Under the pieces are notes generated by a model. That model did no database searches, had not been told where the DNA came from, and saw only the letters and a program-made list of their open reading frames with translations. Below, piece by piece: positions 24,110 to 42,454 of a stretch of DNA of 64,000 nt (its first letter is position 1; every line of letters begins with the position of its first letter). Origin of the DNA: a virus; IMG/VR virus record IMGVR_UViG_3300021368_002114, positions 1 to 64,000 of that record, one strand, 5' to 3'. A program made the translations under genes and the position numbers.

Positions 24110-24939
24110 TAGGAATAGTAGGGCAGGGATTTGTAGGTAATGCCGTTTATCAGAAGTTTAGTAAATATTATGATGTTTTAACAAATGATTTAGATAAGAA
24201 TAAATCAACAGCAACATTACAAGATTTAATATCTTCTTGTGAAACTATTTTCTTATGTTTACCAACACCAATGAAACCAGATGGTAGTTGTGATTTATCT
24301 ATACTTGAAAACGTATTACAAGAAATAGATTTGATTGTAGATAACTACGAGACAAAAAGAACTATTGTAATAAAATCAACGATAATTCCTGGTACAACTA
24401 AAAAATGGAATGAAACATATGAATCTCTAAATATAGTTTTTAATCCTGAGTTTCTTACAGAAAGAAACGCAGTGAAGGATTATGATAATCAGAAGAGAAT
24501 TATATTAGGAGGCCCAAGGCCTACCACAACAGAATTAAAACAAATATTTTCAAAAGTATTTCCAAAAGCAACAATAATCAAAACCGATTCTACTCATGCT
24601 GAAATGGTAAAGTATTTAACTAATACATTCCTTTCAACTAAAGTATCATTCGCAAATGAGATATATCAGTTGTGTGATAAACTTGATATTGATTATGATA
24701 AGGTTGTTGAATATGCAACTTATGATGAAAGATTAGGAAAATCTCATTGGGGAGTTCCTGGCCATGATGGTGATTTTGGTTTTGGTGGACATTGTTTTCC
24801 AAAAGATTTAGCAGCATTACTTCATCTTACAATTAAAATGGGTACTATAAATAATGTTTTACTTGCCACTTCTAATACAAATGATGAGGTAAGAAAAAAT
24901 AGAGATTGGGAACAAATGAAAGGAAGAGCCGTATCGTGA
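24106..24939 (+). CDS. UDP-glucose/GDP-mannose 6-dehydrogenase-like enzyme (short form)
   Basis: 277 residues. NAD-binding GIVGQGFVGNAV, LCLPTPMKPDGSCD, IKSTIIPGTT, FNPEFLTERNAV, and the catalytic Cys in FGFGGHCFPKD. Full-length enzymes are ~400-450 residues; here the C-terminal UDP-binding domain is missing, so the protein ends shortly after the central helical domain. The two core domains are complete, so it may act in a simplified form or on another sugar. Expected product is a uronic acid nucleotide. Confidence 0.8.
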   Translation: MIGIVGQGFVGNAVYQKFSKYYDVLTNDLDKNKSTATLQDLISSCETIFLCLPTPMKPDGSCDLSILENVLQEIDLIVDNYETKRTIVIKSTIIPGTTKKWNETYESLNIVFNPEFLTERNAVKDYDNQKRIILGGPRPTTTELKQIFSKVFPKATIIKTDSTHAEMVKYLTNTFLSTKVSFANEIYQLCDKLDIDYDKVVEYATYDERLGKSHWGVPGHDGDFGFGGHCFPKDLAALLHLTIKMGTINNVLLATSNTNDEVRKNRDWEQMKGRAVS

Positions 24940-25823: not shown

Positions 25824-26614
25824 GTATCGGAATATTAGGATGGAATAGTAATAATTCATCCTTACCAAATACATTATTTTCTTATCTAAGAAATGAATTT
25901 TTTGATGTAACTGATGATATTACTATCTTTTTTCAAGAGTTAAAAGAAGAAGATAAAAAGTTAGCCAAATATTTCAACTTAAATTATATTGGTGATTCAG
26001 AAAATGTTGGAATTGCAAAAGCATTCAATGCCTTAGTAAACAATGCTAAGTATGAAAACTTTCTTATACTAGAACATGACTGGTATTTACAAGAAAATGC
26101 AGAAACAGTATTCAAAAGAATCAAATCTTCTATAAAGTTATTAGATGAGGGATATGATTGTATAAAGATGAGAAGTATGACTAGACCAGGTTTTACAGAT
26201 TTTTCAGTAATAAGATATTTAGATAATCCTTTGGAATATTTTGATGAAGAATTACAATTACCATATCCTCATTTGTTAGATGCTTGTCATGTTTATAAAG
26301 ATATACATAAAATGTATCCTGAAATGATACAACAGATACATGATGGTGATTGTATGTATTATACATCATCTAGTAGATATGGAAACTATACAAATAACCC
26401 TTGTATTTACAAAACTAAATTCTTTAAGGAAATACTTGAAAGATTTTTAGGAGATACTGATTCCCTCGAAGGTTTAATTTCAAGATGGTGGGCTCATCAA
26501 AACTATAAAGTTGCTCATTCAGAAGGATTGTTTACTCATTTCGATGTTGTAAAATATGCTCCATATTGGGATACTATAAATTATTATACAAAAGAAAAAG
26601 GAATATTAAAATAA
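25805..26614 (+). CDS. GT-A-type glycosyltransferase-like protein
   Basis: 269 residues. The first 100 resemble a GT2 domain: ISIGILGWNSNNSSLPNTL, ENVGIAKAFNALV, and FLILEHDWYL in the DxD position (EHDW). The later part (DACHVYKDIH, MYYTSSSRYG) is unrecognised. It overlaps the preceding gene by 19 bases. Confidence 0.65.
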   Translation: MEKLPISIGILGWNSNNSSLPNTLFSYLRNEFFDVTDDITIFFQELKEEDKKLAKYFNLNYIGDSENVGIAKAFNALVNNAKYENFLILEHDWYLQENAETVFKRIKSSIKLLDEGYDCIKMRSMTRPGFTDFSVIRYLDNPLEYFDEELQLPYPHLLDACHVYKDIHKMYPEMIQQIHDGDCMYYTSSSRYGNYTNNPCIYKTKFFKEILERFLGDTDSLEGLISRWWAHQNYKVAHSEGLFTHFDVVKYAPYWDTINYYTKEKGILK

Positions 26615-27301
26615 ATGGATATACAAAACAATTTTTCAGTACACTATCAAACTTGGAAGAATAAAGATGCCGTTAAAAAAGTTTTAACTGATTTTAGAAA
26701 CCACTTTCCCACCAATCCTATAAGATTGGTTTCTGATAATGGGGCAGATTATAAAGATTTTGTTGATACTTTTGAAGTAGTATATGAATTCCAAAACTCA
26801 AATGTTTTTCCTGGTGGTAAGTTTGGAGATATATCTCATTGTTATGAGTGGTTGGATAGATTAAATTCAACTTGTCAAATGTTTGATACTGATTGGGTTG
26901 TGATATTTGAAGATGATGTTCTTACAAAAAATAGTAATATCCAATTCCCTAATTCAGATTCAGGTGGAGTGTATGTGCATCCATGGAAACAACCATTAAC
27001 CGATAAGTTAAAAGAAAGAAATACTTCAAATAAAAATTGGGGATATGGAATGTGTGGAGGTTCTATTTTTAGAAGGCAATCTTTTTTAGATTCCTATAAT
27101 AAAATAAACGAATTCCCATTAGAAGAATTATCTAAATTAGATGATAGAATTGTTGGGTGGTCTGATACTCTTATTAATTGTTTCCTACAATACTTTGGAT
27201 ATAGTTATGAAGTTTGGAGTGGTATGGATGATATGTTATATCCAAATTGGAAACCAAAAGAAGATACTATTTTTCTTCATGGTTATAAAGAATTATATTA
27301 A
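26615..27301 (+). CDS. GT-A-type glycosyltransferase-like protein
   Basis: 228 residues. VVIFEDDVLTKNS near residue 96 is a DxD-type motif, preceded by a GT2-like N-terminus (FSVHYQTWKNKDAVKKVL). Segment GYGMCGGSIFRRQ resembles the acceptor region of small GT-A enzymes. Its stop shares a base with the mutase start. Confidence 0.65.
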   Translation: MDIQNNFSVHYQTWKNKDAVKKVLTDFRNHFPTNPIRLVSDNGADYKDFVDTFEVVYEFQNSNVFPGGKFGDISHCYEWLDRLNSTCQMFDTDWVVIFEDDVLTKNSNIQFPNSDSGGVYVHPWKQPLTDKLKERNTSNKNWGYGMCGGSIFRRQSFLDSYNKINEFPLEELSKLDDRIVGWSDTLINCFLQYFGYSYEVWSGMDDMLYPNWKPKEDTIFLHGYKELY

Positions 27302-28383
27302 TGTACGATTATTTAATAGTTGGTAGTGGATTTTTTGGTTCAATATGTGCAAGAGAACTTACCGATAGTGGTAAGAAAGTTTGTGTAATTGAAAACAGAA
27401 ACCACATTGGTGGTAATTGTTATACATCTAAACGAAATGGAATAAACGTACACGATTACGGCCCACATATATTTCATACTTCAAATGAAGAAGTTTGGAA
27501 GTGGATTAACCAATATGTAGATTTCAATGATTTTACATTAAGACCCGTAGCAAACTACCAAGGTGAGATTTATTCTTTACCTTTTAATATGTGGACATTC
27601 TCTAAATTATGGGGAATCACTCACCCATATCAAGCAAAAGAAATTATAGAAGAACAATCTAAACATATAAAAGACCCAAAAAACTTAGAAGAACAAGCAA
27701 TTAAACTTGTTGGTAAAGATGTATATGAAAAGTTAATCAAAGGATATACAGAAAAACAATGGAGGAAAGATGCAAAGGATTTACCAAAAGAAATAATCAA
27801 ACGATTACCTGTACGATTTAATTATGATAATAATTACTTCAACGATAAGTACCAAGGTATTCCAATCGGTGGATATACTCAGATATTTGAAAAACTTTTA
27901 GATGGAATAGAAGTAAAATTAGAAACTGATTTTTTCAAATCAGAATTACCAAAGTATAAGAAAGTAATTTATACAGGACCAATTGATAAATACTTTGATT
28001 ATAAATTTGGTGAGTTAGAATATAAAACAACTAACTTTGAACACAAAAAAATGGATACTGATAATTATCAAGGAGTTGTAATGATGAACTATACAGAAAA
28101 GAATGTTCCTTTTACAAGAACAATAGAACACAAACACTTTGAAAATGTAGAATCAGATTCAACTTGGGTAACTTGGGAGTTTCCAACTGAATATAAAGCA
28201 GATGAAACTGAACCATATTATCCAGTCAATGATAAAGAAAATACTAAAATATACAACAAATATAAAAAACTAGCTGATAAAGAAAAGAATGTTTACTTTG
28301 GTGGTAGATTAGCAGAATACAAATACTATGATATGCACAAAGTAATTGAATCCGCACTAAATTTTGTTAATGATATAAAATGA
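27301..28383 (+). CDS. glf: UDP-galactopyranose mutase
   Basis: 360 residues, the usual length. FAD-binding YLIVGSGFFGSICARELT, ENRNHIGGNCYT, HDYGPHIFHTSNEEVW, YTEKQWRKDAKDLP, and the end LAEYKYYDMHKVIESAL are all family hallmarks. It converts UDP-galactopyranose to UDP-galactofuranose, a sugar of bacterial surface glycans absent from most phages. The surrounding transferases presumably include one using the furanose form. Confidence 0.95.
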   Translation: MYDYLIVGSGFFGSICARELTDSGKKVCVIENRNHIGGNCYTSKRNGINVHDYGPHIFHTSNEEVWKWINQYVDFNDFTLRPVANYQGEIYSLPFNMWTFSKLWGITHPYQAKEIIEEQSKHIKDPKNLEEQAIKLVGKDVYEKLIKGYTEKQWRKDAKDLPKEIIKRLPVRFNYDNNYFNDKYQGIPIGGYTQIFEKLLDGIEVKLETDFFKSELPKYKKVIYTGPIDKYFDYKFGELEYKTTNFEHKKMDTDNYQGVVMMNYTEKNVPFTRTIEHKHFENVESDSTWVTWEFPTEYKADETEPYYPVNDKENTKIYNKYKKLADKEKNVYFGGRLAEYKYYDMHKVIESALNFVNDIK

Positions 28384-29156
28384 AAAAAATAAGGATAAAT
28401 TGTGAATTTGGTTCTGAGCTTGTTTTCAAAGTAGCTGAGGTATATCATGAATGGAAAAAAGATTCTAAAATAGAATTACATACTTTTAAGGGTATGGCTC
28501 CTTTTTATTTTTATATGAATAAAAATGATATTATAGAAAAAGATGTTAAAAGAGGATTGGGTTCACCATTTGGAGTAAAATTACACGCCAAGGAACTGCC
28601 TTCATATTGTAATGAATACCCAAACTTTAAGGAAAAGTATTCAACTTATAAATTACCTTTTGAAACTGATAGAGAAATAATTTTAATCAGTAACAAATAT
28701 AATGTAGAGTGGAATAACCCACCAATAAATTTTTTAGATATACCAACATTAACTGAATTATTCGAAACTCTTAGTAAAAAATATTTAGTTGTTTATAATA
28801 GAATTCAAAGTTCACAAATAGCTGATGATGGTGCTGCAATAAAAGATTTAGGTGATTATGAATTGGTAGAGAAATATGATAATGTTATTGATTTCAACAA
28901 AATAGAATCAGATTATACTCCAAATGAATTACAACTAATATTAGTTTCACAAGCAAAACATAAAATATCTGTACAAGGTGGTACAAGTATTTTATCAAGT
29001 TTAGGTGGAGGAACAAATGATATTTTTGTGGTAAAGGGTGGAGAGTTAGAACATGATACGATGAATCTTTGGTACAAGAATTTATCAAATGGTGATATTA
29101 AAATTACAACACATTCCACATACGAAACGTTAATAGAAAAGTGCAGAACAATATGA
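28380..29156 (+). CDS. Possible GT-B-type glycosyltransferase
   Basis: 258 residues. The most telling segment is HKISVQGGTSILSSLGGGTN near residue 198, which resembles the donor-binding region of some polysaccharide glycosyltransferases. YLVVYNRIQSS and DNVIDFNKI are strand-like. No clear family assignment; the place between glf and another transferase supports a sugar role. Confidence 0.45.
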   Translation: MKKIRINCEFGSELVFKVAEVYHEWKKDSKIELHTFKGMAPFYFYMNKNDIIEKDVKRGLGSPFGVKLHAKELPSYCNEYPNFKEKYSTYKLPFETDREIILISNKYNVEWNNPPINFLDIPTLTELFETLSKKYLVVYNRIQSSQIADDGAAIKDLGDYELVEKYDNVIDFNKIESDYTPNELQLILVSQAKHKISVQGGTSILSSLGGGTNDIFVVKGGELEHDTMNLWYKNLSNGDIKITTHSTYETLIEKCRTI

Positions 29157-29947
29157 GTAGAGGATATCTATTTTACGCAATAGGAGATTATTGGTTAGAT
29201 GAAGCAATAAATCTATCTAAGAGTATCAGAAAGTTTGGTAATGATGGTTATCCAATATCATTAGTAGTTAAAGAAGATGGAATTGAACGAGCTAATAATA
29301 CACAATTATTTGATAAGTTAATTATATTAAATGAAGATAGTGAGTTATTTACAAAAACAAAATTAAATCATGAAAGGTATGGTGTTATCGCATCGTTCTT
29401 TATGTTCGATATTGCACCTTATGATGAAACAATGATTATTGATACAGATGTACTATGTTTATCTGATACAAAAATAGCATGGGAAAAGTTAACATCTAAA
29501 GACCAATGTTTCACACCTGTTGGTAGAAACATTTCACCCGATTGGCACTTTGGTTATAATAAAAAACTTATTCAAGATTTAGGATTTAATATACCAGAAA
29601 CTCACAATGGATGTCAAGTGATAAAACCAAATCACAAAGATGTTCCGAAGTTTGTAGAACATCTTTTATATAGTTGGGATAATTATGATAAATTAGGATT
29701 CCAAAGAAAATTCAGAGGTGGAGCTTGTCAAGAAATTAACTTTGGATATGCAAGTGGTAAAATGAATTATAAGGTAATTGAGTTTAGTAAAGAACCTGTA
29801 ATGACTTTTAATATAGGTTTAGATACAAAAATACCAACAAGAATACAAACACTTGATAATACTGAATTGTATGATAATATACCATTCATTCATATGTTCA
29901 AACCACACAGAAACACTTATTTAGAATTAGTTAAAAGATTATTATGA
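29153..29947 (+). CDS. GT8-like glycosyltransferase
   Basis: 264 residues using the ATG at 29153, which overlaps the previous stop; an in-frame ATG at 29141 is an alternative. YLFYAIGDYWLDEAINLSKS and the metal motif MIIDTDVLCLSD (DxD) near residue 95 fit GT8-type enzymes, as do the C-terminal FIHMFKPHR residues. Confidence 0.65.
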   Translation: MSRGYLFYAIGDYWLDEAINLSKSIRKFGNDGYPISLVVKEDGIERANNTQLFDKLIILNEDSELFTKTKLNHERYGVIASFFMFDIAPYDETMIIDTDVLCLSDTKIAWEKLTSKDQCFTPVGRNISPDWHFGYNKKLIQDLGFNIPETHNGCQVIKPNHKDVPKFVEHLLYSWDNYDKLGFQRKFRGGACQEINFGYASGKMNYKVIEFSKEPVMTFNIGLDTKIPTRIQTLDNTELYDNIPFIHMFKPHRNTYLELVKRLL

Positions 29948-30738
29948 TTATACTTGGATGTATTACAAAATATAAACCAGAGGATATAAGGCCTTATGTA
30001 GAATCCATTGAACAGACTGAGTTCAATGGTAAAAAAATAATGATGGTATATGAAGTACCACAAGAAACAATTGATTATCTTAAATCTAAAAATTGGGAAA
30101 TATATGGTGGTAACTTAAATCAACATATAATTCTTCAAAGATTTATTGATATCTATAAACTATTAGAATCGTTTCCAAATGAAATTATAATTTGGACAGA
30201 TGTTAAGGATGTAATATTTCAGAAAGACCCTACATCTTGGATTGAACAAAATAAGAAAAAACCTATACTTTCATTTTCAGAATGTGTTACATTCAAAGAT
30301 GATGAATGGGCTTGTGTAAATAGTGGAACTTCTTTTCCTATGGAATGGGAGTGGTTACAACATCTACCTTCTTATTGTGCAGGAACTATCGTGGGAGATT
30401 CCGAATATTTAAGAGATTTATTTATAAACATTTATAGATGGAGCTTAACAACATCGAATCAAGAACAACTTTCAGACCAAGCTGCATATAATGTATTAAT
30501 TAATCAAACTCAATATAAAGATATTGTACAGACGGTAGAACAAGAGGAAGGATTTGCAACTCAACTTGGAACTGTTTGGATGAAAAAAGACCACTTTGGG
30601 GATAAATTACTAGAACCAACTCCAAAATTAGAAATTGATGGCAAGTTTGTAAATCAAAAAGGAGATACTTTTGTAATAGTTCATCAGTACGATAGAGAAA
30701 AAAGTATAAAAGAGCTTATAGAAAAAAAATATAAATGA
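29944..30738 (+). CDS. GT-A-type glycosyltransferase-like protein
   Basis: 264 residues. IIIWTDVKDVIFQKDPTSWI near residue 81 is the nucleotide and metal motif of a GT-A group in which the D-x-x-D-V-x-F-Q stretch is conserved. SYCAGTIVGDSEYLRDLF and SDQAAYNVLIN are also typical of that group. It overlaps both neighbours by 4 bases. Confidence 0.65.
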   Translation: MIILGCITKYKPEDIRPYVESIEQTEFNGKKIMMVYEVPQETIDYLKSKNWEIYGGNLNQHIILQRFIDIYKLLESFPNEIIIWTDVKDVIFQKDPTSWIEQNKKKPILSFSECVTFKDDEWACVNSGTSFPMEWEWLQHLPSYCAGTIVGDSEYLRDLFINIYRWSLTTSNQEQLSDQAAYNVLINQTQYKDIVQTVEQEEGFATQLGTVWMKKDHFGDKLLEPTPKLEIDGKFVNQKGDTFVIVHQYDREKSIKELIEKKYK

Positions 30739-31625
30739 AGATAGTAATATCAATATTTTGTTTACCTTACGAAATTGATGAATTAGAGAATACTATAAAT
30801 CAATTAAAAAAGGCATCTTATTACCTTACTAATAAACAAGTAGAATGGTATCTTGATGTTACTATGTGTACTTCAAATGATATGGTAAATTGGGGTAAAT
30901 CATCCTTACCTAAAAAATTCTTTGAAGAAAAATTGATGAAGATATCCACTAGTACAGATTGGTGTGTCAAATATTTTAGAACATCGGATGATATAAAAGG
31001 GTGTGTATCACAGAGAAGAGAATCTATAAAAAATCATAAAGATGCTCATTATTTTATTTGGTTAGATACTGATATTATATTTGATGAAAGAACTCTTTCC
31101 TATGTAGAAAACTCTATAATTGGTATCAAAGATATTCCTTATTCTATAATAACTCCTGAACTTGTGAGAATTTGGGATAATACTTGGGATATTTTGGTAA
31201 ATAAAAATTATATAAAACAAAAAGTTGGATATCAAAAAATAGCAGACCCATACGAATGTAGTGGATTAAAAGGAGATGTATCATTAGAAAGAGTAGAAAA
31301 TACTTCTTCACCACAATCTAGATTCAAATTTGCAGGTGGGTGGTTTACTTGCATTAGTGCATCTCTATTGAATCGAGTAGGAATACCTGAATCATTTGGT
31401 CACTATGGATATGAAGATACATTTATAATGATTGCTTGTGAAAAGTTAGTTAGAATTGGTGAGGATATCCAACAATTCAAATTGAAAAATCTAGTAGTTT
31501 GTGAAAACTACAAGTATAGAAATAATTCCCATTACATAAATAATATTTCAGTATATGATAGAAGAGAAGAATTCAAAAAACTTGGATACGATTCTTTTAA
31601 TGATGAAATTCAAAAAATTATTTAG
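30735..31625 (+). CDS. GT2-like glycosyltransferase (end of glycan island)
   Basis: 296 residues. FIWLDTDIIFDERTL carries the DxD motif near residue 113, and GHYGYEDTFIMIA is the conserved acceptor-side motif of GT2 enzymes. It is the last gene of the glycan island; a 142-base gap with a class 2 box and an RNA hairpin follows. Confidence 0.7.
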   Translation: MKIVISIFCLPYEIDELENTINQLKKASYYLTNKQVEWYLDVTMCTSNDMVNWGKSSLPKKFFEEKLMKISTSTDWCVKYFRTSDDIKGCVSQRRESIKNHKDAHYFIWLDTDIIFDERTLSYVENSIIGIKDIPYSIITPELVRIWDNTWDILVNKNYIKQKVGYQKIADPYECSGLKGDVSLERVENTSSPQSRFKFAGGWFTCISASLLNRVGIPESFGHYGYEDTFIMIACEKLVRIGEDIQQFKLKNLVVCENYKYRNNSHYINNISVYDRREEFKKLGYDSFNDEIQKII

Positions 31626-31743: not shown

Positions 31744-31766
31744 GTAATCTAAGAAAAGGAGATTAC
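31744..31766 (+). promoter_or_regulatory. Hairpin enclosing the ribosome binding site
   Basis: GTAATCT (31744-31750) pairs exactly with AGATTAC (31760-31766), with the purine-rich AAGAAAAGG in the loop, and the TTG start at 31768 directly follows. The Shine-Dalgarno-like bases thus lie in the loop and the stem, so the fold could control translation of the first export gene. Confidence 0.5.
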
Positions 31767-31767
31767 T

Positions 31768-32271
31768 TTGAAAAAATTTGTACACAATCTCTTGTTTGGG
31801 TTAACGTTGATTCTGTTATGTTCTACACTACAATCATCCAATCCCACACAAGATAACACTATCTCAATCGGAGAGGTAACCAACGAAATCAGAGTTGGAC
31901 CTTTTGCGGGCAATCCCTCTATGGCCTATGGAGTTCGAAATATCTTAGAAGAACTCTTAATGGATTTAGACTACGACTTATCAGACAATTCAGAAACGAA
32001 AATCAACGTAAGGTTAGTATTTTTCGATGTAAAAAATATAGGTAAATCAATTGGTATTTACCACAATAAAGTATCACTAACTCAGATTATAGCAATCGGT
32101 GAGTTAGAAAAAAATGGTAAAGTAAAGAAGAGAACTACTCAAAAAGGACAGAGTAAAGAAATCTCTACTTCTACTTTAGTGGTTGCATCTGATGGACAAT
32201 TTAATCAACAAACGGCTTCTAACTCATTAAAAAAAGTATTAGAGGCAATTATTAAGGACTTATTAAAATGA
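31768..32271 (+). CDS. Secreted small protein, first gene of the export locus
   Basis: 167 residues from a TTG start with an AAAAGGAG site upstream. N-terminal signal peptide (FVHNLLFGLTLILLCSTLQ); a Cys at 18 is not in a clear lipobox. The mature part alternates strands and a final helix (ASNSLKKVLEAIIKDLL), reminiscent of small YajG- or LptE-like envelope proteins, but this is only fold resemblance. It overlaps the next gene by 4 bases, so the whole locus begins here. Confidence 0.6.
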   Translation: MKKFVHNLLFGLTLILLCSTLQSSNPTQDNTISIGEVTNEIRVGPFAGNPSMAYGVRNILEELLMDLDYDLSDNSETKINVRLVFFDVKNIGKSIGIYHNKVSLTQIIAIGELEKNGKVKKRTTQKGQSKEISTSTLVVASDGQFNQQTASNSLKKVLEAIIKDLLK

Positions 32272-33956
32272 AAAAACAATTATTAACACTATTATTTCTT
32301 CTTGGTGCATTCGTATCGTTTGGCCAAGAAACAATTAAAATCAACAAAACGAACACAGTTTCGAAGGTTGGTGATACTATTAAACTGAAAGTGGAGTATT
32401 CAGGTACAGCAGGAACTGCAAAACTTACTCAGTTTGATTTTCAGTATAACAACAAGTTACTATCGTTACAATCAAGAAATTGGATTGTATCTTCAAATTC
32501 AGCTCAAAAGGCTTATAACTCATGGAATGGGTATAAGTGGGGTAACAACACTGCAACAAGTGATATTGATGGCCAGTACGCTGATTTTGTAGCAGGTAGT
32601 ACTATCTATGGTTCAAACGCAGATTTTTCGGTAGAGAGAATTACTATCCAAGATGTTACTGCATTTGCCGATGGAGATGGTTGGATGGAGTATAACTTTA
32701 TTATTAAAGATAAAGCAGGTACTAACTATTCAGATTATTCTAATCTACTAAGTATGAACTGGGGTTATCTTAAAAAAGATGATGGAACTGAAATAGCAGT
32801 AGAAGGTAAGGTAGATAATGGAACTGGTTTAAGTTTAACTGGTATCACAGGAGGTGATGCTGGAACTGTAACACTTAAAATATTCAGTAAAGCAATAGAT
32901 AATTCACTAATAGATGGTACAGATTATACTTACTATGTTTATAATAAATCAGATATCGGTGCGGGTAACCAAGTAAATGAGGGAGCAACTCATGTTAAAA
33001 CAGGTAACTATGATGCATCAGGTGAAGCAACTGTAAGTGGTTTAGAAAACGATAAAGAATATTTTGTTTGGAACTTCGTTGATGGTTCTAAAGATTATAT
33101 GGATAACGTAGTAACTGTATCTGATTTAGCATTAGTATTTCAAGAAGCAATCGGTGCAGGTTCTTCACCAAATGGTTCTTCAACAACATTTGATTATCAT
33201 ATTCAAACATTCTTGGCAAACGTAATCCATGATTCACCATTTGATGGAGTGATAAATTTCTCAGATTCATATGAGATACTTGCTTACTTACAAGGTGTAA
33301 CAAGTGGAAACTCTAATTACATTTCTAAGAAAGGTGGAGCAGTACAGAGTGGTGGTACTAAATCAATATTTGGTACAGTAGATGAAAATGGAAGTTATTT
33401 AGCTAACTTAGATGCAACTTTCAAACCAACTGATTCTAATAAATCATTTGAGTTTGCTCATGTTCTAATTGGTGATGTAAACTTCTCACACTCTTATCAA
33501 CCAGCAAATACAAATGATTTCAAAATTAGTTCTATGAATATTAGTAATTCTGCACCTCTTGCATCAAGTGCAAGATACACTCCGATTCAACAAAATGTTG
33601 ATTTGACATCTCAAATTGTAGATGGTGAAGTAATCTTCTCAATCAATTCAGAAGTAACTGGTATGATTGGAACACAATTTAACATTGTATATGATGATAC
33701 AAGATTAGAATTAAAGAACGTAGTATTCGATACTGGTAACGAAATGACTAACTTCGCTAACCACATCGAAGAAGAAGGAAAAGTAAACATAGGTTCATTT
33801 GACCAACAGTTTGAACAAACTGTAAAAACAGGTACTCCATATCAATTAATATTCACACCATTAGTTGAATTGAGTAACACATCAGGTTTAATCTCATTTA
33901 AGGTTAACGAAGGTGTTAAGGCAGATGGTACACAAATTAAATTAAACATGGAGTAA
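32268..33956 (+). CDS. Large secreted protein A with dockerin-like and cohesin-like C-terminal regions
   Basis: 562 residues. Signal peptide ~1-19 ending SFGQ. The middle is beta-rich. Residues ~285-345 (VTVSDLALVFQEA ... INFSDSYEILAYLQG) look dockerin-like. Then comes LIGDVNFSHSYQP, and the last ~110 residues (VIFSINSEVTGMIGTQFNIV ... ADGTQIKL) look like a cohesin-type beta sandwich. The C-terminal ~300 residues are homologous to those of the 908-residue protein at 38290-41016. Each is followed at once by a related lipoprotein. Likely exported to the periplasm or cell surface. Confidence 0.75.
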   Translation: MKKQLLTLLFLLGAFVSFGQETIKINKTNTVSKVGDTIKLKVEYSGTAGTAKLTQFDFQYNNKLLSLQSRNWIVSSNSAQKAYNSWNGYKWGNNTATSDIDGQYADFVAGSTIYGSNADFSVERITIQDVTAFADGDGWMEYNFIIKDKAGTNYSDYSNLLSMNWGYLKKDDGTEIAVEGKVDNGTGLSLTGITGGDAGTVTLKIFSKAIDNSLIDGTDYTYYVYNKSDIGAGNQVNEGATHVKTGNYDASGEATVSGLENDKEYFVWNFVDGSKDYMDNVVTVSDLALVFQEAIGAGSSPNGSSTTFDYHIQTFLANVIHDSPFDGVINFSDSYEILAYLQGVTSGNSNYISKKGGAVQSGGTKSIFGTVDENGSYLANLDATFKPTDSNKSFEFAHVLIGDVNFSHSYQPANTNDFKISSMNISNSAPLASSARYTPIQQNVDLTSQIVDGEVIFSINSEVTGMIGTQFNIVYDDTRLELKNVVFDTGNEMTNFANHIEEEGKVNIGSFDQQFEQTVKTGTPYQLIFTPLVELSNTSGLISFKVNEGVKADGTQIKLNME

Positions 33957-33960
33957 AAAA

Positions 33961-34335
33961 ATGAAAAAATTATTATTATCACTTATCGTATTATTATCAC
34001 TAACATCTTGTATGAAAGATGAATTGATAGAACCTATATTCATCGATAGTATGCCAGAGGCACTTGTTATTGATGAGTTGGTTGGAATAAAATTAGAAAG
34101 TACAATTGTATCTTCAGAAGTAAGAATGAATATCAAACTTCCTGTGGATGGAACGTACAGAGTGAAAATTAGAGATTTAGATAACTCTTTAATTTCACAA
34201 GAAAAACTAACGGCTAAAGAGGGAGATAATCTTCTCTCTGTTTATACAAGTAGTTTGGATAAATCCTCATTTACTCTTGAATTAACTGATGTTAATCACA
34301 AGGTAATTGGTAGGACGGTTTTCGTTAATCAATAA
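33961..34335 (+). CDS. Small lipoprotein paired with secreted protein A
   Basis: 124 residues with a lipobox-type signal (LLSLTSCMKDE; Cys 17). The mature part is a single beta domain (GTYRVKIRDLDNSL, EGDNLLSVYTSSLDKSSF). It resembles the lipoprotein at 41013-41363: both have a G-x-N-x-L/F-x-x-Y-T segment and a V-I-x-x-T ending, and each follows a large secreted protein. The pair may act as anchor and anchored protein. Confidence 0.75.
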   Translation: MKKLLLSLIVLLSLTSCMKDELIEPIFIDSMPEALVIDELVGIKLESTIVSSEVRMNIKLPVDGTYRVKIRDLDNSLISQEKLTAKEGDNLLSVYTSSLDKSSFTLELTDVNHKVIGRTVFVNQ

Positions 34336-34354
34336 TGGAGTTTAGAATTAGTAA

Positions 34355-34855
34355 ATGAAAAAGTTTTTATTAACATTTATTACATTAACCTTTACACTAG
34401 GCATGGTTGCATCTTGTGTAAATCCTTCAATGGAAAGAGGTTTAGAGTCGTTGGAAGCATCTCTTGCAGAGTTAGAGGCTTCACTAATATTAGTTGACAT
34501 CGAACAGATGAAAATTGATTTAGAAACGATGCAATCACAAGTAGAACAAATGGAAGTGGATTTGGAAACTTCTGTGGATGATGCCTTGGCAAAAATGGCT
34601 GATATAAAATTACGTTTAGAATCTATTCTTGAAACTGCAGAAGATTGGGCAACTGATGAACAAGTTCAAAATCTTTTAGCTCAAGTTCAAGAAGTTAGTG
34701 AAGGAATCGATATGTTAGTTTTTATTGCTGATTATGATTACGATGGTGTTATGAATGGATTAGACCAATGTCCTGATACACCTATAACAGAAATTAATAA
34801 CGTAAATGGAGTTGGATGTGCACCAAATGAAACACCAACAACTGATGGAGACTAA
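34355..34855 (+). CDS. Coiled-coil lipoprotein with TSP3-type calcium repeat
   Basis: 166 residues. Lipobox GMVASC, then ~90 residues of regular Glu/Leu/Met heptads (LESLEASLAELEASL, MKIDLETMQSQVEQMEVDLE), predicted coiled coil. The C-terminal DYDYDGVMNGLDQCPDTP is a thrombospondin type 3 repeat, usually calcium-binding, as in OmpA-like proteins. It resembles an outer-membrane spacer protein but lacks an OmpA domain. Confidence 0.75.
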   Translation: MKKFLLTFITLTFTLGMVASCVNPSMERGLESLEASLAELEASLILVDIEQMKIDLETMQSQVEQMEVDLETSVDDALAKMADIKLRLESILETAEDWATDEQVQNLLAQVQEVSEGIDMLVFIADYDYDGVMNGLDQCPDTPITEINNVNGVGCAPNETPTTDGD

Positions 34856-34858
34856 ATT

Positions 34859-35152
34859 ATGAGTGAAAAAAAAGAAGGATTCTTTTCACAATTAAAAAAC
34901 CAAATCATAGCTGGTGTAGGAGTAATCCTCACCGGCCTTGGTGGTTTGTTTATGGATGAGGTAAAATCATTCATAGGGATTGAAGATGAAGAATCAGCAC
35001 CTGTTCAAGTAGAACAGAAACAAGAAGTGAATGTTGAAGGACCTACAATTGTGGTTAACATTCCAGAACAAAAAAAAGATACAGTTGTAAAAAAAGTATA
35101 TGTTAAACCCGTAGAAAAACCAAAAGAGAAAGAAGAAAAAATCGATTGGTAA
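34859..35152 (+). CDS. Small membrane protein with charged C-terminal tail
   Basis: 97 residues. One hydrophobic segment (IIAGVGVILTGLGGLFM) near the N-terminus, then a beta segment (VEGPTIVVNIPEQ) and a Lys/Pro/Glu-rich tail (VKPVEKPKEKEEKIDW). No cleavable signal. The Pro/Lys tail could span the periplasm to reach the lipoprotein encoded just upstream; that is inference. Confidence 0.6.
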   Translation: MSEKKEGFFSQLKNQIIAGVGVILTGLGGLFMDEVKSFIGIEDEESAPVQVEQKQEVNVEGPTIVVNIPEQKKDTVVKKVYVKPVEKPKEKEEKIDW

Positions 35153-35174
35153 ACTACACAAAAAAGGAGAGATT

Positions 35175-35378
35175 ATGAAAAAATTCGTTGTACACAACCC
35201 CATAGCAATGATATGGAAAGAGGCCGAGAGTTTATTGGATTACACAATAGCACTATGGTTAACCGCTTTAGCAATTTTAGCAGTTAGTGGTATCTTAGTA
35301 ATGATTTTTGAATTAATAACTAACCCATCATCGTTTTCAAATGCATCATTTGGTGTATTTGATACATTAGGGAGATAG
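35175..35378 (+). CDS. Small membrane protein with NPS-NA-FG-FDTLG tail (copy 1)
   Basis: 67 residues with one clear membrane segment (ALWLTALAILAVSGILVMIF) and the C-terminal motif NPSSFSNASFGVFDTLG. The next gene encodes a paralogue ending in the same motif. A good AAAGGAG site precedes it. Confidence 0.7.
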   Translation: MKKFVVHNPIAMIWKEAESLLDYTIALWLTALAILAVSGILVMIFELITNPSSFSNASFGVFDTLGR

Positions 35379-35387
35379 GAGAATATT

Positions 35388-35573
35388 ATGATTACACAAA
35401 TTTTTACAGACAAAATGTCAGATTACAAATTTATGGATGTTATTTTGAAAATATGGATAGGTGGTTTAATGATAATGTGGGCAGTTGGAATGGTTGCTAT
35501 CATTAGTCATATAATCATGAATCCATCAGCAGTTGATAACGCAACATTTGGTATATTTGATACTTTAGGATAA
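35388..35573 (+). CDS. Small membrane protein with NPS-NA-FG-FDTLG tail (copy 2)
   Basis: 61 residues, one membrane segment (IWIGGLMIMWAVGMVAIISH) and the tail NPSAVDNATFGIFDTLG, matching copy 1 at 11 of 17 positions. The pair arose by tandem duplication and may form a hetero-oligomer in the inner membrane. Confidence 0.7.
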   Translation: MITQIFTDKMSDYKFMDVILKIWIGGLMIMWAVGMVAIISHIIMNPSAVDNATFGIFDTLG

Positions 35574-35581
35574 AAAGAAAT

Positions 35582-35686
35582 ATGAAAAAAATTATAGAAT
35601 TAATTATCAAAATTGATAAATGGCTCTCGGATAGGATATGGGAAATGTATCCAGAGTTAACTAAACACATGAAGGATAAGAAATGA
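35582..35686 (+). CDS. Very small amphipathic protein
   Basis: 34 residues (starts MKKIIELIIKIDKWL, ends HMKDKK), too short for a 60-residue cutoff. It lies 8 bases after the second membrane protein and overlaps the next start in an ATGA. The N-terminal half is a strongly amphipathic helix. It contains EMYPEL, which also occurs in the CsgG-like protein downstream, perhaps by chance. Confidence 0.5.
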   Translation: MKKIIELIIKIDKWLSDRIWEMYPELTKHMKDKK

Positions 35687-36399
35687 GATTAATCACAACA
35701 ATAGTTTTGATGTTATTCACACTAACATCATTTTCACAAACGATTGGTAAGGTTAAGGCTGAAGAATACACCGCAGAATTTGAAAAGAAAAAATCAATTG
35801 ATGATGTTTCAGATTATTGGGGTGATATGATACCAGTATCTCTACTCAATGTTGGTATATCTGATGAATTATATGAGATGTATCCTGAGTTAAGAGATGG
35901 TAGAGTGGGTTTAGGTCTTACTAATATAGTAATAGAATACTTAGATTGGACAAACAGATTTGAATTCGTAGAAGAGAAGTCTGCAATCAAGGATAGAATG
36001 AAAACACAATGGGTTGCATCAAGAAAAGGTGTTTCGGAAAACCAAGTTTATGGTTTAGGTAAAATTAAGTTAGCAGAATATTTCGTTACAATAGAGATAT
36101 ATGATTTCTCTGTTTCAGAGGATGAGGTTTTATCACTTAAAGATGGTTCTAAACAAACACAAACAACTCGTTTAGGTTTACAAGTTAGGTTTACTAATGC
36201 AGAGAATGGTACATACTTTGTAGGTTCCGGTCTTGGTACGGCAAATACAGTAAAGACTCAAGAGGGTTTGCTGGGGTTAGATTTGGATGAAATAAAGTTC
36301 AGACAATCAGCAATTGGAGTATCTACCAGAAAAGCATTGGAAACCGCTTCAGCGAGAATTGTGGCAAGGATGATTCGTAAGAAGATATTTGAGAACTAG
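35683..36399 (+). CDS. CsgG-like secretion/assembly protein
   Basis: 238 residues with signal peptide ending SFSQ. Pattern features of the CsgG/HfaB group: SLLNVGISDELYEMY, GLGLTNIVIEYLDWTNRF, FVEEKSAIKDRMKTQ (where CsgG has an ER-x3-L segment), KLAEYFVTIEIYDFS, TTRLGLQVRFTNAENGTYF. In curli systems CsgG forms a nine-subunit outer-membrane pore. There is no lipobox Cys here. From memory, CsgG-like genes are annotated in some marine myoviruses. It may export the large secreted proteins on either side. Confidence 0.55.
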   Translation: MRLITTIVLMLFTLTSFSQTIGKVKAEEYTAEFEKKKSIDDVSDYWGDMIPVSLLNVGISDELYEMYPELRDGRVGLGLTNIVIEYLDWTNRFEFVEEKSAIKDRMKTQWVASRKGVSENQVYGLGKIKLAEYFVTIEIYDFSVSEDEVLSLKDGSKQTQTTRLGLQVRFTNAENGTYFVGSGLGTANTVKTQEGLLGLDLDEIKFRQSAIGVSTRKALETASARIVARMIRKKIFEN

Positions 36400-36415
36400 A
36401 AGAGAGGAGAAATGA

Positions 36416-38281
36416 TTGAAAAAGCTCCTTATAACTTTATTCTTATTCTTAAGTAGTTTTACTTATGGACAGGTGTTTACACAAACATTTGTAGATAGAT
36501 GTACTAACGAAGTGAAGGTTGTTACTGCAAACTTTCAAACAGGTAGTGCGGTAGTATCATTCTACGATAGAGTTAAGATATTTACCTACCAACAATTTCT
36601 AAATGGTGAATTACACCAATGGTTGGGAGAAACATATGCATGGTGGAATACTCTATCACCATGTTCTACAACAACAAATCAAGCACAAAACGCACAGAAT
36701 CAAGCCACCCAAGCTCAGAATCAAGCTACTCAGGCATCTAACGCCGCCAGTAATGCCGCAAATAATGCCGCAAATGCAACTACTGGTACAACACAAACAA
36801 CTACAACTGGTACAACTGGTACAACTAATACTGGTTCAACTAATACTGGTTCAACTAATACTGGTTCAAGTGGTAGTACTTCATCTGGCTCAAGTGGTTC
36901 AACTAATAACTCAAGTGGAGGAACAAGTAATGGGAATTCAAGTAGTAATAACAATTCTTCCGGTAGTAGTGGTGGAGAAAGTTCCGGCTCTTCAAACTCT
37001 AGCGGAGGAGATACGTCAAGTGGCACGGACTCGAGCTCTGGCTCGGATTCAAGCTCGAACAACTCAACAGATAACTCGTCAGAAAGCTCATCGGGCTCTT
37101 CTTCGGACAGTTCGGAAGGTAGCGGAGATGTAGATAATAGTGGAGAATCATCTGATAACTCAGGTGAATCATCAGATAATAGTGGTGATGAAGGAGGAGA
37201 TGGTTCGGATAGTGGTTCTGATGAATCAGGTGGTGATGAGGGAAGTGATGATTCTGGTGGAGAAGAATCTGATAGTGGTGAATCTGATGAGGGAAGTGAT
37301 GAATCAAGTGAAGAAAGTTCAGAAGAATCAAGTGAAGAAGAATCATCAGAGGAAAGCTCAGAAGAAGAATCAAGTGAAGAAGAATCTTCAGAGGAATCAG
37401 AAGAAGAAAGTTCAGAAGAAGAATCAGAAGAGAGTGAAGAAGAATCTGAAGAATCTGAAGAAGAAAGTGAAGAGGAAGAATCGGAAGAGGAATCTGAAGA
37501 AGAGGAAGAAGAAAGTGAAGAAGAATCAGAGGAAACCGAAGAGGAAGAAGAATCTGAGGAAGAGGAAGAAAAGAAATTCTTACCAATACAATTAAAAGCA
37601 GATTTTATGCAACAACAATCACCTCTTGGTTTTTATAATAGTGTATTGAATATAGGAGCATCTCGTTCATCTATTTATGGTGATGTTGCATATACGGCAA
37701 ATGTAATGGTATATGATAACTTACAACAAATTACTTTTATGGGAGCACGTTCTAAGGTTAATATGACAGAAACTTTTAAGGTGAAAAATATATCAGCTAC
37801 ATCAATTGGATACTCCAACAACTATGGTTATTCAACTTTAATGTTATCAAAATCTTTGATGAAACCATTTGAGAATGGGTTGACAGTTGGTATTGGTGTA
37901 TCTGCTGGTACAACGTTTATATCATATCCAATGAAAGAAAATTTTATGTTATCTTATAATGTATTAGCAACAAAATCATTTAAGATAGGTACTCGTATAA
38001 CTTACTCCCCAGCGATAATTTGGACACAAACTCCATTTATGAGTGTAGAAGGTGGAGTAGGATTGGAAAAAACTTATTACAAAGAAAATCCTTTTGGAAT
38101 AAAGTTTGAAAATTCTTTAAGAGGACAGAGAATAGATGGTATGGGAATTATAGCTAATTCATTTACAGTACAACTAACGCCAAGATTTGGATTCAATGTA
38201 GGATGGACTGCAATTAAATCAACTAATCCTATTATACCTTTAATAAACTCATTTATGATAGGTTCTAAAATTCCATTATAA
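36416..38281 (+). CDS. Outer-membrane protein with Ser/Gly/Asn- and Ser/Glu-rich extension and C-terminal beta barrel
   Basis: 621 residues from a TTG start preceded by AGAGGAG. Signal peptide ends TYGQ; a short folded part with two Cys (to ~residue 83); QNAQNQATQAQNQ-type repeats; a Thr/Gly/Ser/Asn-rich stretch; a Ser/Glu-rich stretch at ~295-385; then ~235 residues with alternating hydrophobic strands (GFYNSVLNIGASRSSIYGD ... FMIGSKI) fitting a small outer-membrane barrel. The long acidic arm is probably disordered and could reach outward or inward. It follows the CsgG-like gene by 16 bases. Confidence 0.65.
   Translation: MKKLLITLFLFLSSFTYGQVFTQTFVDRCTNEVKVVTANFQTGSAVVSFYDRVKIFTYQQFLNGELHQWLGETYAWWNTLSPCSTTTNQAQNAQNQATQAQNQATQASNAASNAANNAANATTGTTQTTTTGTTGTTNTGSTNTGSTNTGSSGSTSSGSSGSTNNSSGGTSNGNSSSNNNSSGSSGGESSGSSNSSGGDTSSGTDSSSGSDSSSNNSTDNSSESSSGSSSDSSEGSGDVDNSGESSDNSGESSDNSGDEGGDGSDSGSDESGGDEGSDDSGGEESDSGESDEGSDESSEESSEESSEEESSEESSEEESSEEESSEESEEESSEEESEESEEESEESEEESEEEESEEESEEEEEESEEESEETEEEEESEEEEEKKFLPIQLKADFMQQQSPLGFYNSVLNIGASRSSIYGDVAYTANVMVYDNLQQITFMGARSKVNMTETFKVKNISATSIGYSNNYGYSTLMLSKSLMKPFENGLTVGIGVSAGTTFISYPMKENFMLSYNVLATKSFKIGTRITYSPAIIWTQTPFMSVEGGVGLEKTYYKENPFGIKFENSLRGQRIDGMGIIANSFTVQLTPRFGFNVGWTAIKSTNPIIPLINSFMIGSKIPL
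36822..36866 (+). repeat. Three tandem copies of a 15-base unit
   Basis: CAACTAATACTGGTT occurs three times in direct succession, coding for repeated NTGST units within the low-complexity part of the outer-membrane protein. Such repeats can change copy number by slippage without breaking the frame, since the unit is five codons. Confidence 0.85.
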
Positions 38282-38289
38282 TTATTAGT

Positions 38290-41016
38290 ATGAAGAAACT
38301 GTTTACATTAATATTATTTTTATTTTCCTTTATAGGATTCTCACAAAGTGGAGATGGGTATATAAATTATACTTCATGGAGAACACAATGTGGTAATGGA
38401 TGTAATATTCAAACAACGATAAATGGAACAGCCGTTACAGTTGCTGGTCATATGAATAATACATTAGAGTTTGATGCGGCAATGAGGGAATATGTTGGGT
38501 TAAGTGCAACCGAAATATTAAATAGTGGTGAAACCCAAGCATTTAGTGCAGGTGGTTTCGGTACTTCAGTACTTTCATATAATGGTGGTAGACCTATTGG
38601 ACCAGGTAACTCACAAGGAGAATATTATATAGTTGATTACACAGGTTGGTTCTATGCAAGTTCAACAGGTAACTATAAGTTTTGGACTTATTCAGATGAT
38701 TCACACGAATTTTGGTTAGATTTAGATGGTGATGGTGTATTAGAATCTACTGAAATGATAACTAAAAAATATAACGGTTCAGGTAATAATCAATCTACTA
38801 ACATTTCACTTACAAGTGGAACTTGGTATAAATTAAGAGTAAGATTCCATGAATTCACAGGTGGTGATTGGTTAAGAGTTCAATATCAAGACCCAACACA
38901 TAATGGTGGTTCAACTACTTCCTCTTGGAGAATACTTGGTGATACTACATGGGGTGATAAAGTATCAAATGCTGAACCAGCACCTACATTTGTAAATACA
39001 GTTGCAAATGATGGACCAAATGCTATTATTTATAAATCATTCAAAATAAATGATTATGCTAATAACAATAATCAGGGTGAATATAATGACCATCCACAAA
39101 GTTCATCTGATTTTGATGCTATGTTTGATTATGCTAATAAAAATACTACTACTTGGACACATTATGGTAGAGATACAGCAACAAAAGCATTTACTTGGCC
39201 ATACCCTAATCTTCTACCAAAACACGACAACACCAACTTTGGGTGGATAATAGAAGGTTACTTTGTACCCCCAACTTCAGGTACTTATAAATTTCAATTA
39301 AATTCAGATGATAGAAGTGATTTTTGGTTTGATGCAAATGATGATGGAACAATTACTAATACAGGTATAGGATTGGGTAATGGAGCTAGAGAAATTGATA
39401 TAACAAATTTAACAGCAGGTGTATCTTATAAGTTTAGAGTTAGATTTGAACAAGGAGCTGGAGGAGCCAACTTAACATTAAAATGGAAATCACCTGAAGA
39501 TATAGCAGCAGGAGCTGCATTTGCTTTCAATGGTAATACAATATACAGTATAGATGCAGATAATTATGTTGAACCTTTTCACTATGATGTAAACTATAAA
39601 TTTAGAAACATCGATGAAACTGGTTTTTCAATTAATACTTATTACGAAGTATCGGATTCTGAAATTGCTAAAAACTCAAACTCAAATACAATCTCATTAG
39701 ATGGAAATGGAGAAGCAACAATAACTTCTCAAGTAGATGAAGATTTAGTTGGACAAGGTAAGTACAATATCACCGCAACACCAGGTAATGTAGAATGGGT
39801 TGTAACATATATGCCAATGGTAACAAACAAATATACATACAGAATTGGTTTAGATGCTAGAGAGTTTCCAAGTAATGTAGATTTAGATGATGTAAATAAT
39901 ATAGAATTATTAGATTTAGTAGATACAGATGGAACATCAAGTTATTTTGGAACACCAGGATATTCGAACTCTTGGTCAGTTAGAAGTAATGACCCAAATG
40001 GTTGGAATGAATTTAATTATATGACTTGGAGTACTATTCCTTTTTCATCATCAAATTACTCTTCAAGTATAAGAAGTTTAGGTGGTGGTGGATATGCACT
40101 AAAAGTAGACTTAAACTTTAATGAGGTAACCGCATATAAAACTCAATATGTGGTTTTTGATTCACCAAGTACATCTGAATTAGAAGCAATGGTAGATGAT
40201 GTATTCACAGTAGCAGATGTTGTAATGGCATTTAACGAATTAGCAGGTGGTGGAATCAATGGTGGTTTCAAAGGTGATTTTGATTATAATGTTCAATATG
40301 CAAATGCAGATGTAAGTAGAGATGGTGTATTTGATTTCAAAGATACACAAATAATGTTAGATTTTCTAAATGGTGGAACTATGTTCGATGCATCTTATCT
40401 TGCAGCAGTAATGTCATTAACAGAGGTAAGTGCTTATAATTCTATGACATCTACAAATTGGACAAACTATGGTGGGACTCGTACAATGTTCCCACTTGGA
40501 TTGGTAACTGGTACAAAACAATATGATAAGAGTATTGCAGTACATTGGAAGGGTGATGTTAATATGTCTCATTCTCATTTACCATCGAGTGTACAAGTTA
40601 CAAGTATGGCTAGAAATATGACAATAAGTAATTCTTCAAAATCCATACAAAATCAGTTTGAAGTAGATTTAGATATTGAAAAGATTGGTGAAGAAATTGT
40701 GGTAACTCTAAAAGTACCAGAAAATACAAAAAATATAACTGGTTCTGAATTTAGAATAGGATATGATAATAGTAGAGTAACCTTTGATAGAATAGAAAAT
40801 GATTCTAATTTACAATCATTTTCAGCAAGAAGAAGTACTTACATAAAGTTAGGTTCAATATCATCAGATGGTTCTCAGAATCTAAATGGAGGTACTGAAT
40901 ATAAAATATACTTTAAGGAAACTAACAATCTTGATTCTTTCTTAGGTTTAGTTTCAGTATTGAATGTAGAGTTAGTTAAAAAAGATGGAACACAAATAGG
41001 AGTAATTGTAAAATGA
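38290..41016 (+). CDS. Large secreted protein B with two PA14-like domains and dockerin/cohesin-like C-terminus
   Basis: 908 residues. Signal peptide ends GFSQ. Two PA14-like domains: ~100-210 (VDYTGWFYASSTGNYKFWTY) and ~320-405 (GYFVPPTSGTYKFQLNSDD), a fold that often binds carbohydrate. Residues ~640-700 (FTVADVVMAFNELAGG, DGVFDFKDTQIMLDFL) look dockerin-like, then KGDVNMSHSHLP, then a cohesin-like last domain. The C-terminal third matches secreted protein A (32268-33956). The next gene is its paired lipoprotein. Confidence 0.75.
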   Translation: MKKLFTLILFLFSFIGFSQSGDGYINYTSWRTQCGNGCNIQTTINGTAVTVAGHMNNTLEFDAAMREYVGLSATEILNSGETQAFSAGGFGTSVLSYNGGRPIGPGNSQGEYYIVDYTGWFYASSTGNYKFWTYSDDSHEFWLDLDGDGVLESTEMITKKYNGSGNNQSTNISLTSGTWYKLRVRFHEFTGGDWLRVQYQDPTHNGGSTTSSWRILGDTTWGDKVSNAEPAPTFVNTVANDGPNAIIYKSFKINDYANNNNQGEYNDHPQSSSDFDAMFDYANKNTTTWTHYGRDTATKAFTWPYPNLLPKHDNTNFGWIIEGYFVPPTSGTYKFQLNSDDRSDFWFDANDDGTITNTGIGLGNGAREIDITNLTAGVSYKFRVRFEQGAGGANLTLKWKSPEDIAAGAAFAFNGNTIYSIDADNYVEPFHYDVNYKFRNIDETGFSINTYYEVSDSEIAKNSNSNTISLDGNGEATITSQVDEDLVGQGKYNITATPGNVEWVVTYMPMVTNKYTYRIGLDAREFPSNVDLDDVNNIELLDLVDTDGTSSYFGTPGYSNSWSVRSNDPNGWNEFNYMTWSTIPFSSSNYSSSIRSLGGGGYALKVDLNFNEVTAYKTQYVVFDSPSTSELEAMVDDVFTVADVVMAFNELAGGGINGGFKGDFDYNVQYANADVSRDGVFDFKDTQIMLDFLNGGTMFDASYLAAVMSLTEVSAYNSMTSTNWTNYGGTRTMFPLGLVTGTKQYDKSIAVHWKGDVNMSHSHLPSSVQVTSMARNMTISNSSKSIQNQFEVDLDIEKIGEEIVVTLKVPENTKNITGSEFRIGYDNSRVTFDRIENDSNLQSFSARRSTYIKLGSISSDGSQNLNGGTEYKIYFKETNNLDSFLGLVSVLNVELVKKDGTQIGVIVK

Positions 41017-41363
41017 GAAAATATTTAATACTTTTATTGTTTCTTTTATTTTCATGTGAAAAGGATTTCATAGAAGATGATTTATTACCAGAAGTACCAA
41101 GAGAAGATATGGTATTTAAGGTAAAGGAAAGTACAGTAGTAGATAATCAATTGATATGGTTTGAAATAGATACAGAGGTAAAACATACTCTTGTAATTTC
41201 TCATATAGATACTAAATCGGTAATCGTAAAACAATCTTTTTTACCTACTGTTGGTATCAATAACTTTATATTATACACAAAAGCATTACCAAAAGAAAAA
41301 CTACAACTTCAGTTAATATTAAGTGGTGAGGTTATAAAATCAACGTTTATAATCGTAGAGTAA
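41013..41363 (+). CDS. Small lipoprotein paired with secreted protein B
   Basis: 116 residues; lipobox LLFSCEKD (Cys 15). Beta-rich mature part homologous to the lipoprotein at 33961-34335 (GINNFILYTKALPKEKLQL against GDNLLSVYTSSLDKSSFTL). It overlaps the stop of protein B by 4 bases. Last gene of the export locus. Confidence 0.75.
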   Translation: MRKYLILLLFLLFSCEKDFIEDDLLPEVPREDMVFKVKESTVVDNQLIWFEIDTEVKHTLVISHIDTKSVIVKQSFLPTVGINNFILYTKALPKEKLQLQLILSGEVIKSTFIIVE

Positions 41364-41809: not shown

Positions 41810-42454
41810 ATGTTTATATTCACAGAAGAAAATATTGGAAAGATAAATAATACCGTCTATTCATCCGATGGTATGAAAGATAAGCATGCAGAAAAAATTG
41901 AGTATGCAAAAACTAAAGGATTATTAAAAGATTTTAATTTTAGTAAATACTTTGATAGAAAACCACCTCAAAATAGTTCACTAACAACATATCAAGAATT
42001 GATGTATCTAAAAGATTTACCAGAAGATGATGATTTTGTGGAAAAACATGATGATGTAGAGGCTGTATTTGAAGAAGTATGTAATGACCATAATATAAAA
42101 TATCCAAAAGAATTAGTTAAAGAACTAATTAAGTCTTGTACTATGTTGGAATTAAAATGGCATTACAATAGACCAAGACCATATCAACTTGCAGGAAATT
42201 ATAATATCAAGTTGGGTGAGCATGTAATGGAAAGCATGAAAACCCCTTCTTACCCATCTGGTCATTCCGCTCAAGGTATTTTAATTGGAAAAGTTTTACA
42301 AACTAAGTTACCTATAACAACAGATTCTTTTTTAGAAGCTGGTAAACGTATTTCTTATTCAAGAAATATAGGTAGAGCACATTATCCATCAGATTCAAAA
42401 TTAGGTGAGATAATTGGTAGTTCAATGTACGAACACTTAAAACACAAAATTTAA
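41810..42454 (+). CDS. PAP2/class A acid phosphatase-like enzyme
   Basis: 214 residues with all three phosphatase motifs: KWHYNRPRP (K-x6-R-P), PSYPSGHSAQ (PSGH), and SRNIGRAHYPSD (SR-x5-H-x3-D). No signal peptide or membrane segment, so it would act in the cytoplasm unless exported otherwise. Such enzymes remove phosphate from lipids, sugars or nucleotides. Possible targets are undecaprenyl or sugar phosphates linked to the glycan genes, by inference only. Confidence 0.85.
   Translation: MFIFTEENIGKINNTVYSSDGMKDKHAEKIEYAKTKGLLKDFNFSKYFDRKPPQNSSLTTYQELMYLKDLPEDDDFVEKHDDVEAVFEEVCNDHNIKYPKELVKELIKSCTMLELKWHYNRPRPYQLAGNYNIKLGEHVMESMKTPSYPSGHSAQGILIGKVLQTKLPITTDSFLEAGKRISYSRNIGRAHYPSDSKLGEIIGSSMYEHLKHKI

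Follow-up and report, generated by a model that had tools for sequence, protein, structure and literature searches.

A Conserved Module of Exported Proteins in Large Bacteroidota Viruses, a Candidate for Envelope Export and Adhesin Display

What might a phage build in or on the envelope of its host? The question is raised by a run of genes in the stretch of viral DNA analyzed here (the window), which comprises 64,000 of the 65,257 bases of one virus record. The original prediction, made from the letters of this DNA, was of a phage-encoded export and surface locus in which nearly every product is exported or membrane-bound. We have examined this locus using sequence families built from its relatives, structure models, and searches of viral and bacterial genomes.

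Results

The ORF list of the window places 11 genes head to tail on the plus strand (Table 1). The locus does not start at position 31744, as first supposed, but with a TTG codon behind an AGGAG sequence at 31768. By a crude hydrophobicity rule an N-terminal signal or anchor is present in 9 of the 11 locus ORFs compared with 7 of 76 elsewhere (Fisher p = 1e-6), and the two ORFs missed by the rule, F1 and F2, each have a membrane segment, which bears out the predicted run of exported and membrane proteins. The two pairs of a secreted protein followed by a lipoprotein (32268-34335 and 38290-41363) are duplicates, as had been proposed: the last ~280 residues of B and I are 26% identical, and C and J align at 24% identity with a Cys common to both. 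The low-complexity linker of H accounts for the long ORFs seen on the reverse strand and in shifted frames over 36.6-37.6 kb. Promoter matches at the locus are at chance level, and terminator matches are at most slightly over chance. Searched alone against Pfam and PHROG, the window proteins gave almost no match besides PA14/GLEYA, and families were therefore built from relatives.

Table 1. Genes and domains of the locus, in window coordinates
Feature	Coordinates	Strand	Description
A	31768..32271	+	167 aa, signal peptide, small periplasmic protein; probable CsgG/LptE-type fold
B	32268..33956	+	562 aa, signal peptide; cohesin-like/dockerin-like secreted scaffold protein (putative)
B, C-terminal cohesin domain	33642..33872	+	Pfam Cohesin 20.0 bits, E 8e-4
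C	33961..34335	+	124 aa lipoprotein; Ig-like domain resembling T9SS sorting tails / DUF3244
D	34355..34855	+	166 aa lipoprotein; coiled coil and one TSP3-type calcium motif
E	34859..35152	+	97 aa, one membrane segment near N terminus; core member
F1	35175..35378	+	small membrane protein, slot between E and G
F2	35388..35573	+	small membrane protein, paralogue of F1 (about 40% identity)
G	35683..36399	+	238 aa, signal peptide; predicted CsgG-fold protein without lipobox
H	36416..38281	+	621 aa, signal peptide; N-domain, helical stretch, Ser/Glu-rich linker, C-terminal barrel
H, predicted 12-strand barrel	37571..38278	+	strand count from L068 homologue
I	38290..41016	+	908 aa, signal peptide; two PA14/GLEYA-type domains, B-like dockerin/cohesin C terminus
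J	41013..41363	+	116 aa lipoprotein, paralogue of C

G was used as the bait for the module search. The single sequence retrieved 26 IMG/VR contigs, and a search with the G alignment raised the number of confirmed relatives in IMG/VR to at least 570. The same alignment matched three MAG contigs in 84,980 bacterial and archaeal genomes. These contigs (L106, L107, and L108) were binned in Flavobacterium, Bacteroidetes, and Sphingomonadaceae MAGs and are likely to be misbinned phage. The module is thus near-exclusive to viral records, and the near-absence of G from bacterial genomes argues for a phage lineage of these genes and not a recent loan from a host.

Gene counts over 85 non-redundant loci were 85 for G, 84 for H, 81 for B, and 73 for E; kinship among contigs inflates these and all other module counts, and many of the records are fragments. 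The order A-B-C-E-F-G-H-I-J recurs around G in relatives. More distant contigs have either B-E-small membrane protein-G-H-lectin-A or A-B-lipoprotein-E-small membrane protein-G-H. Gene order is preserved across this set of 85 contigs even where identity falls to 20-50%; the original prediction had been staked beforehand on such conservation. D is an accessory gene, present in few relatives, and G is the most conserved gene of the module. The module is under purifying selection, its CsgG-fold core evolving slowest (G dN/dS 0.03-0.13), and I is the fastest evolving large gene (dN/dS 0.25-0.62). The locus represents a genuine module, some eight to eleven genes in size, that is conserved in large Bacteroidota viruses.

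The T4-type major capsid protein gp23 was found in 7 of 28 records in a first set of module carriers and in 12 of 20 records in a second, overlapping set. The gp23-positive records include sizes of 150-340 kb, indicating that the carriers are T4-like phages, some of them jumbo. The only cultured carriers found were the Flavobacterium phages immuto, gp23-positive in the second set, which account for four records, including two versions of one phage. The products gp13-gp19 of immuto are, in order, a lectin, B, a cohesin protein with a type IX secretion system (T9SS) tail, E, G, H, and A. Proteins with a cohesin and a lectin domain are already annotated as such in the immuto record.

G had been described as CsgG-like, a claim that stands for the fold and fails for the sequence. 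The top Foldseek matches of the AlphaFold model of G are all CsgG (E 8e-7, TM about 0.5). The confidence of this model is medium (pLDDT 71), and the two structure models, this one and that of an H homologue (below), rest on 26 and 30 sequences. At the sequence level G matched nothing in Pfam or PHROG and had no significant hit among solved structures. The Pfam CsgG family PF03783 was found in 0 of 20 module records, with positive controls, and hhalign comparison of G with true CsgG gave a probability of 53% (E 1e-4); assignment of G to CsgG by sequence was rejected on these grounds. Across the G family alignment there is no Cys at the cleavage site expected for CsgG lipidation. The first hairpin of G is more charged than that of CsgG (31% versus 17%), so that G may form no pore; given this hairpin and the missing lipobox, a ring without a membrane pore appears as likely as a channel. 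Foldseek indicates that outer-membrane lipoproteins of the PelC, LptE, and HpaA types share their general fold with G; in contrast to these, G lacks a lipobox, and it scores better to CsgG. Profile comparison of A with G (probability 94%, E 1e-7) suggests that A is a distant relative of G with a CsgG/LptE-type fold.

The suggestion that H is an outer-membrane barrel with a Ser/Glu-rich arm was confirmed by the model of its L068 homologue, which comprises an N-domain, a coiled coil, a disordered linker, and a 12-strand barrel, the barrel having a pLDDT of about 90. The N-domain of H has two invariant Cys residues. Sequence searches returned low-complexity matches of the Ser/Glu linker, and the placing of H in a known family by sequence was rejected. 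The fold neighbors of H are the barrels of autotransporters, OmpG, and FapF, with many FapF chains among the top matches. FapF has an N-terminal coiled coil, a disordered linker, and a C-terminal 12-strand barrel (PMC5557850). This layout in the Pseudomonas functional amyloid (Fap) system is shared by the H model. The likeness is at fold level and is not specific, as porins and autotransporters score alike; unlike FapF, H has the extra two-Cys N-domain, and it has no sequence match to FapF.

The cohesin-like and dockerin-like C termini first proposed for B and I fared unequally. The cohesin score of the window B protein, 20.0 bits, lies below the Pfam cut-off of 24.1, but the assignment is upheld by homologues: Pfam Cohesin was detected in 20 of 21 homologous C-terminal domains from the window's clade (best E 1e-6) and in 20 of 29 B homologues, and the top solved-structure matches of the family's C-terminal domain are cohesins. 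In the window, dockerin is seen as no more than a motif in I (DVSRDGVFDFKD). Type I dockerin reaches Pfam significance in homologues, three of 29 for B and three of 21 for the adhesin slot.

The T9SS type A sorting domain TIGR04183 occurs in 13 of 29 B homologues. It scores 44.8 bits in immuto gp15 (cut-off 23) and exceeds the cut-off in nine of 20 genomes searched, in each of which the tail occurs once, always within the module. No such tail was recognized in the window's own phage, and window B lacks it. In a literature search we found no paper on cohesin, dockerin, or T9SS sorting domains in phages. To our knowledge, the T9SS-tailed protein of the module would be the first phage-encoded type IX cargo.

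PA14, for which a profile search had been proposed earlier, is clear in window I (Pfam, E 5e-18), as is GLEYA (E 2e-17). Among 21 homologues at this position, Lectin_C was found in 10, PA14 in six, GLEYA in four, and LamG in three; pentaxin-type domains and dockerin-like C termini also occur there. The domain matches suggest that I occupies a variable adhesin slot.

The lipobox Cys of the C/J family (Cys-17 in C) is invariant in 20 homologues. Weak matches to Por_Secre_tail and DUF3244 were obtained for six and 10 of these, respectively, and an hhalign comparison gave a probability of 46%. C and J were consequently not accepted as clear T9SS tails. The TSP3 repeat claimed for D is present as a motif but scores 19.7 in Pfam, below the 25-bit cut-off. 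E has a Pro/Lys-rich tail that ends in an invariant Trp. Small proteins with one or two membrane segments fill a variable slot between E and G. A holin identity was considered for these, but none of the small membrane proteins of the module matches a holin family.

Directly upstream of the module (18911-31625) is a run of glycosyltransferase-like and sugar-nucleotide genes, the latter, identified by eye, being epimerase, UDP-sugar dehydrogenase, and UDP-galactopyranose mutase-like; the last two or three glycosyltransferase genes still adjoin the module in close relatives. A PAP2-type phosphatase-like gene (41810-42454, by eye) adjoins it in the window's clade. A TonB-dependent receptor with a signal peptide and a carboxypeptidase-regulatory-like N-domain is encoded at 11554-14256 (PF00593, E 7e-15) and also in three other phages of that clade. 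GroEL and GroES homologues were recognized by eye at 6033-7649 and 22959-23261, and a lipoprotein with a very high content of Asn, Trp, Tyr, and Arg is encoded outside the module at 49846-50841. Beside the module in 15 loci, immuto included, is a gene for a secreted DNA/RNA non-specific endonuclease (L105, 9935-10513; the Endonuclease_NS match was shown for L021), which might act outside the cytoplasm to cleave DNA, either superinfecting or of the host. At the module end in 20 loci is a conserved secreted metallopeptidase-like protein (L074, 13705-14169) with an HExxH motif seen by eye and no Pfam match.

Discussion

We consider it somewhat more probable than the contrary that the function of this phage module is envelope export and adhesin display, a reading that draws on domain content and structure models. 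The original view of an export and surface locus is supported as regards phage origin, conserved order, secreted binding proteins, a CsgG-fold protein, and a barrel. In the proposed mechanism a large T4-like phage would make the module products while infecting a Bacteroidota cell. B, C, D, I, and J, which have signal peptides or lipoboxes, would cross the inner membrane by Sec, and at the outer membrane a scaffold may be kept intact through binding between cohesin- and dockerin-type domains. The scaffold would display an exchangeable sugar-binding adhesin, PA14/GLEYA here and C-type lectin or LamG elsewhere. Because of the type A sorting domain at its end, the scaffold protein of immuto-type relatives is expected to exit via the host T9SS. 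In the window's clade B has no sorting tail and is followed by a lipoprotein whose Ig-like domain resembles one. G and A, the FapF-like H, E, and the small membrane protein could, to judge by fold and co-occurrence, form an envelope-spanning conduit or anchor. The likeliest benefit would be adhesion, in that infected cells, debris, and neighbors or particles are held together and the progeny meet new hosts.

The nearest known analogue is the curli module of other phages, with which no sequence family is shared in the tests made, so that any likeness would be one of function. Pelagiphages and methylophages such as HTVC008M and Melnitz carry a true curli (type VIII) module, for which roles in "sibling capture," superinfection defense, and lysis timing have been proposed (PMC7029224, PMC9599517, PMC9004378). 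Both modules are encoded by T4-like phages of aquatic bacteria and place a CsgG-fold protein in an envelope-export cluster. The curli module has PF03783 CsgG, CsgF, and curlin repeats, whereas CsgF and the curlin repeats of CsgA/B were each found in 0 of 18 records of the present module, which has cohesins, lectins, a barrel, and T9SS tails. Since CsgF, curlin repeats, and a Pfam CsgG match are all missing from the records searched, the module is not curli, and a curli system with missing parts was rejected. A further phage csgG entry, the 1.5-kb "Salmonella phage" record OR851715.1 in GenBank, is 96% identical to host csgG and is probably host DNA. The earlier statement that no such complete set is known from a phage therefore needs to be qualified by the existence of phage curli, unrelated in the families tested; the gene set found here has not been described before, though it is carried by one cultured phage.

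Two systems of bacteria are also comparable. Part of the B family shares the type A sorting domain with T9SS cargo of Bacteroidota but, unlike the usual cargo, is phage-encoded, and the domain is not detected in the window's clade. Cellulosome scaffolds likewise combine cohesin and type I dockerin in the proteins of one cluster, the dockerin being significant here in a few homologues; the present proteins differ in that no catalytic domains were found, cohesin and the putative dockerin lie in one chain, the cargo is of lectin type, and the genes are those of a phage.

An egress machine is an unlikely alternative. In it the envelope would be opened at a late stage by E, the small membrane protein, G, and H working alongside holin, spanin, and endolysin, and its disruption or dispersal would be aided by the secreted proteins. 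The variable slot for proteins with one or two membrane segments fits this scheme, as does the proposal that the CsgG of Melnitz is a gated pore for lysis timing (PMC9004378). A phrog_181-type endolysin is near G in 32 loci, and of the 12 large genomes that have it, five carry it at most 5 kb from G (expected 0.6, p 2e-4 with kinship disregarded), so that a release role is allowed by its adjacency in several lineages. However, it lies elsewhere in the other seven, immuto included, and the only amidase-like ORF seen in the window is 11 kb from the module. Lysis by itself would hardly call for lectins, cohesins, and T9SS tails, and the missing holin match also counts against egress. The association with lysis, though real, does not hold generally; it fits an adhesin module expressed late or, in part, a role in egress.

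Superinfection exclusion is a rather improbable account. Here the displayed proteins would mask receptors or saturate the host T9SS, which Flavobacterium phages need: phage resistance is seen in gld/spr (T9SS) mutants of F. columnare (PMC9233685). The T9SS tail in the module and the glycosyltransferase array adjoining it in the window are consistent with such a role, but a blocker needs no variable sugar-binding domains together with a dedicated barrel and a CsgG-fold protein. That these are auxiliary uptake or attachment genes serving the nutrition of the infected cell, and not adhesion, is very doubtful: the same phage encodes a TonB-dependent receptor, but G is practically absent from bacterial genomes and no transport family was found. 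Least credible are virion-associated tail or decoration proteins with hydrophobic N termini, since, for all that lectin and Ig domains also occur in tail fibers and a tail-fiber-like gene lies upstream of the module in six loci, the signal peptides, invariant lipobox Cys, T9SS tail, and barrel target the products away from the cytoplasm, the site of virion formation.

A stronger form of the adhesin-display reading, which we advance tentatively, is that a self-standing viral secretion system, made up of a phage-specific CsgG-fold ring, a FapF-like barrel, and inner-membrane partners and acting together with the host T9SS, builds a cohesin-dockerin lectin scaffold by which lysing cells stay stuck to new hosts. 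If this were true, the module would be a phage-built surface organelle of an undescribed kind.

Bacteroidota are major polysaccharide degraders of fresh and sea water. Hundreds of their large phages have in common a module with which they apparently remodel the surface of infected cells, and the presence of the module in the cultured phage immuto (host Flavobacterium LMO8) means that the question can be tested now. Next to the pelagiphage curli genes, whose role is still debated, the module is another, unrelated innovation of phages. If it makes cells stick, these phages would influence aggregation and perhaps particle formation.
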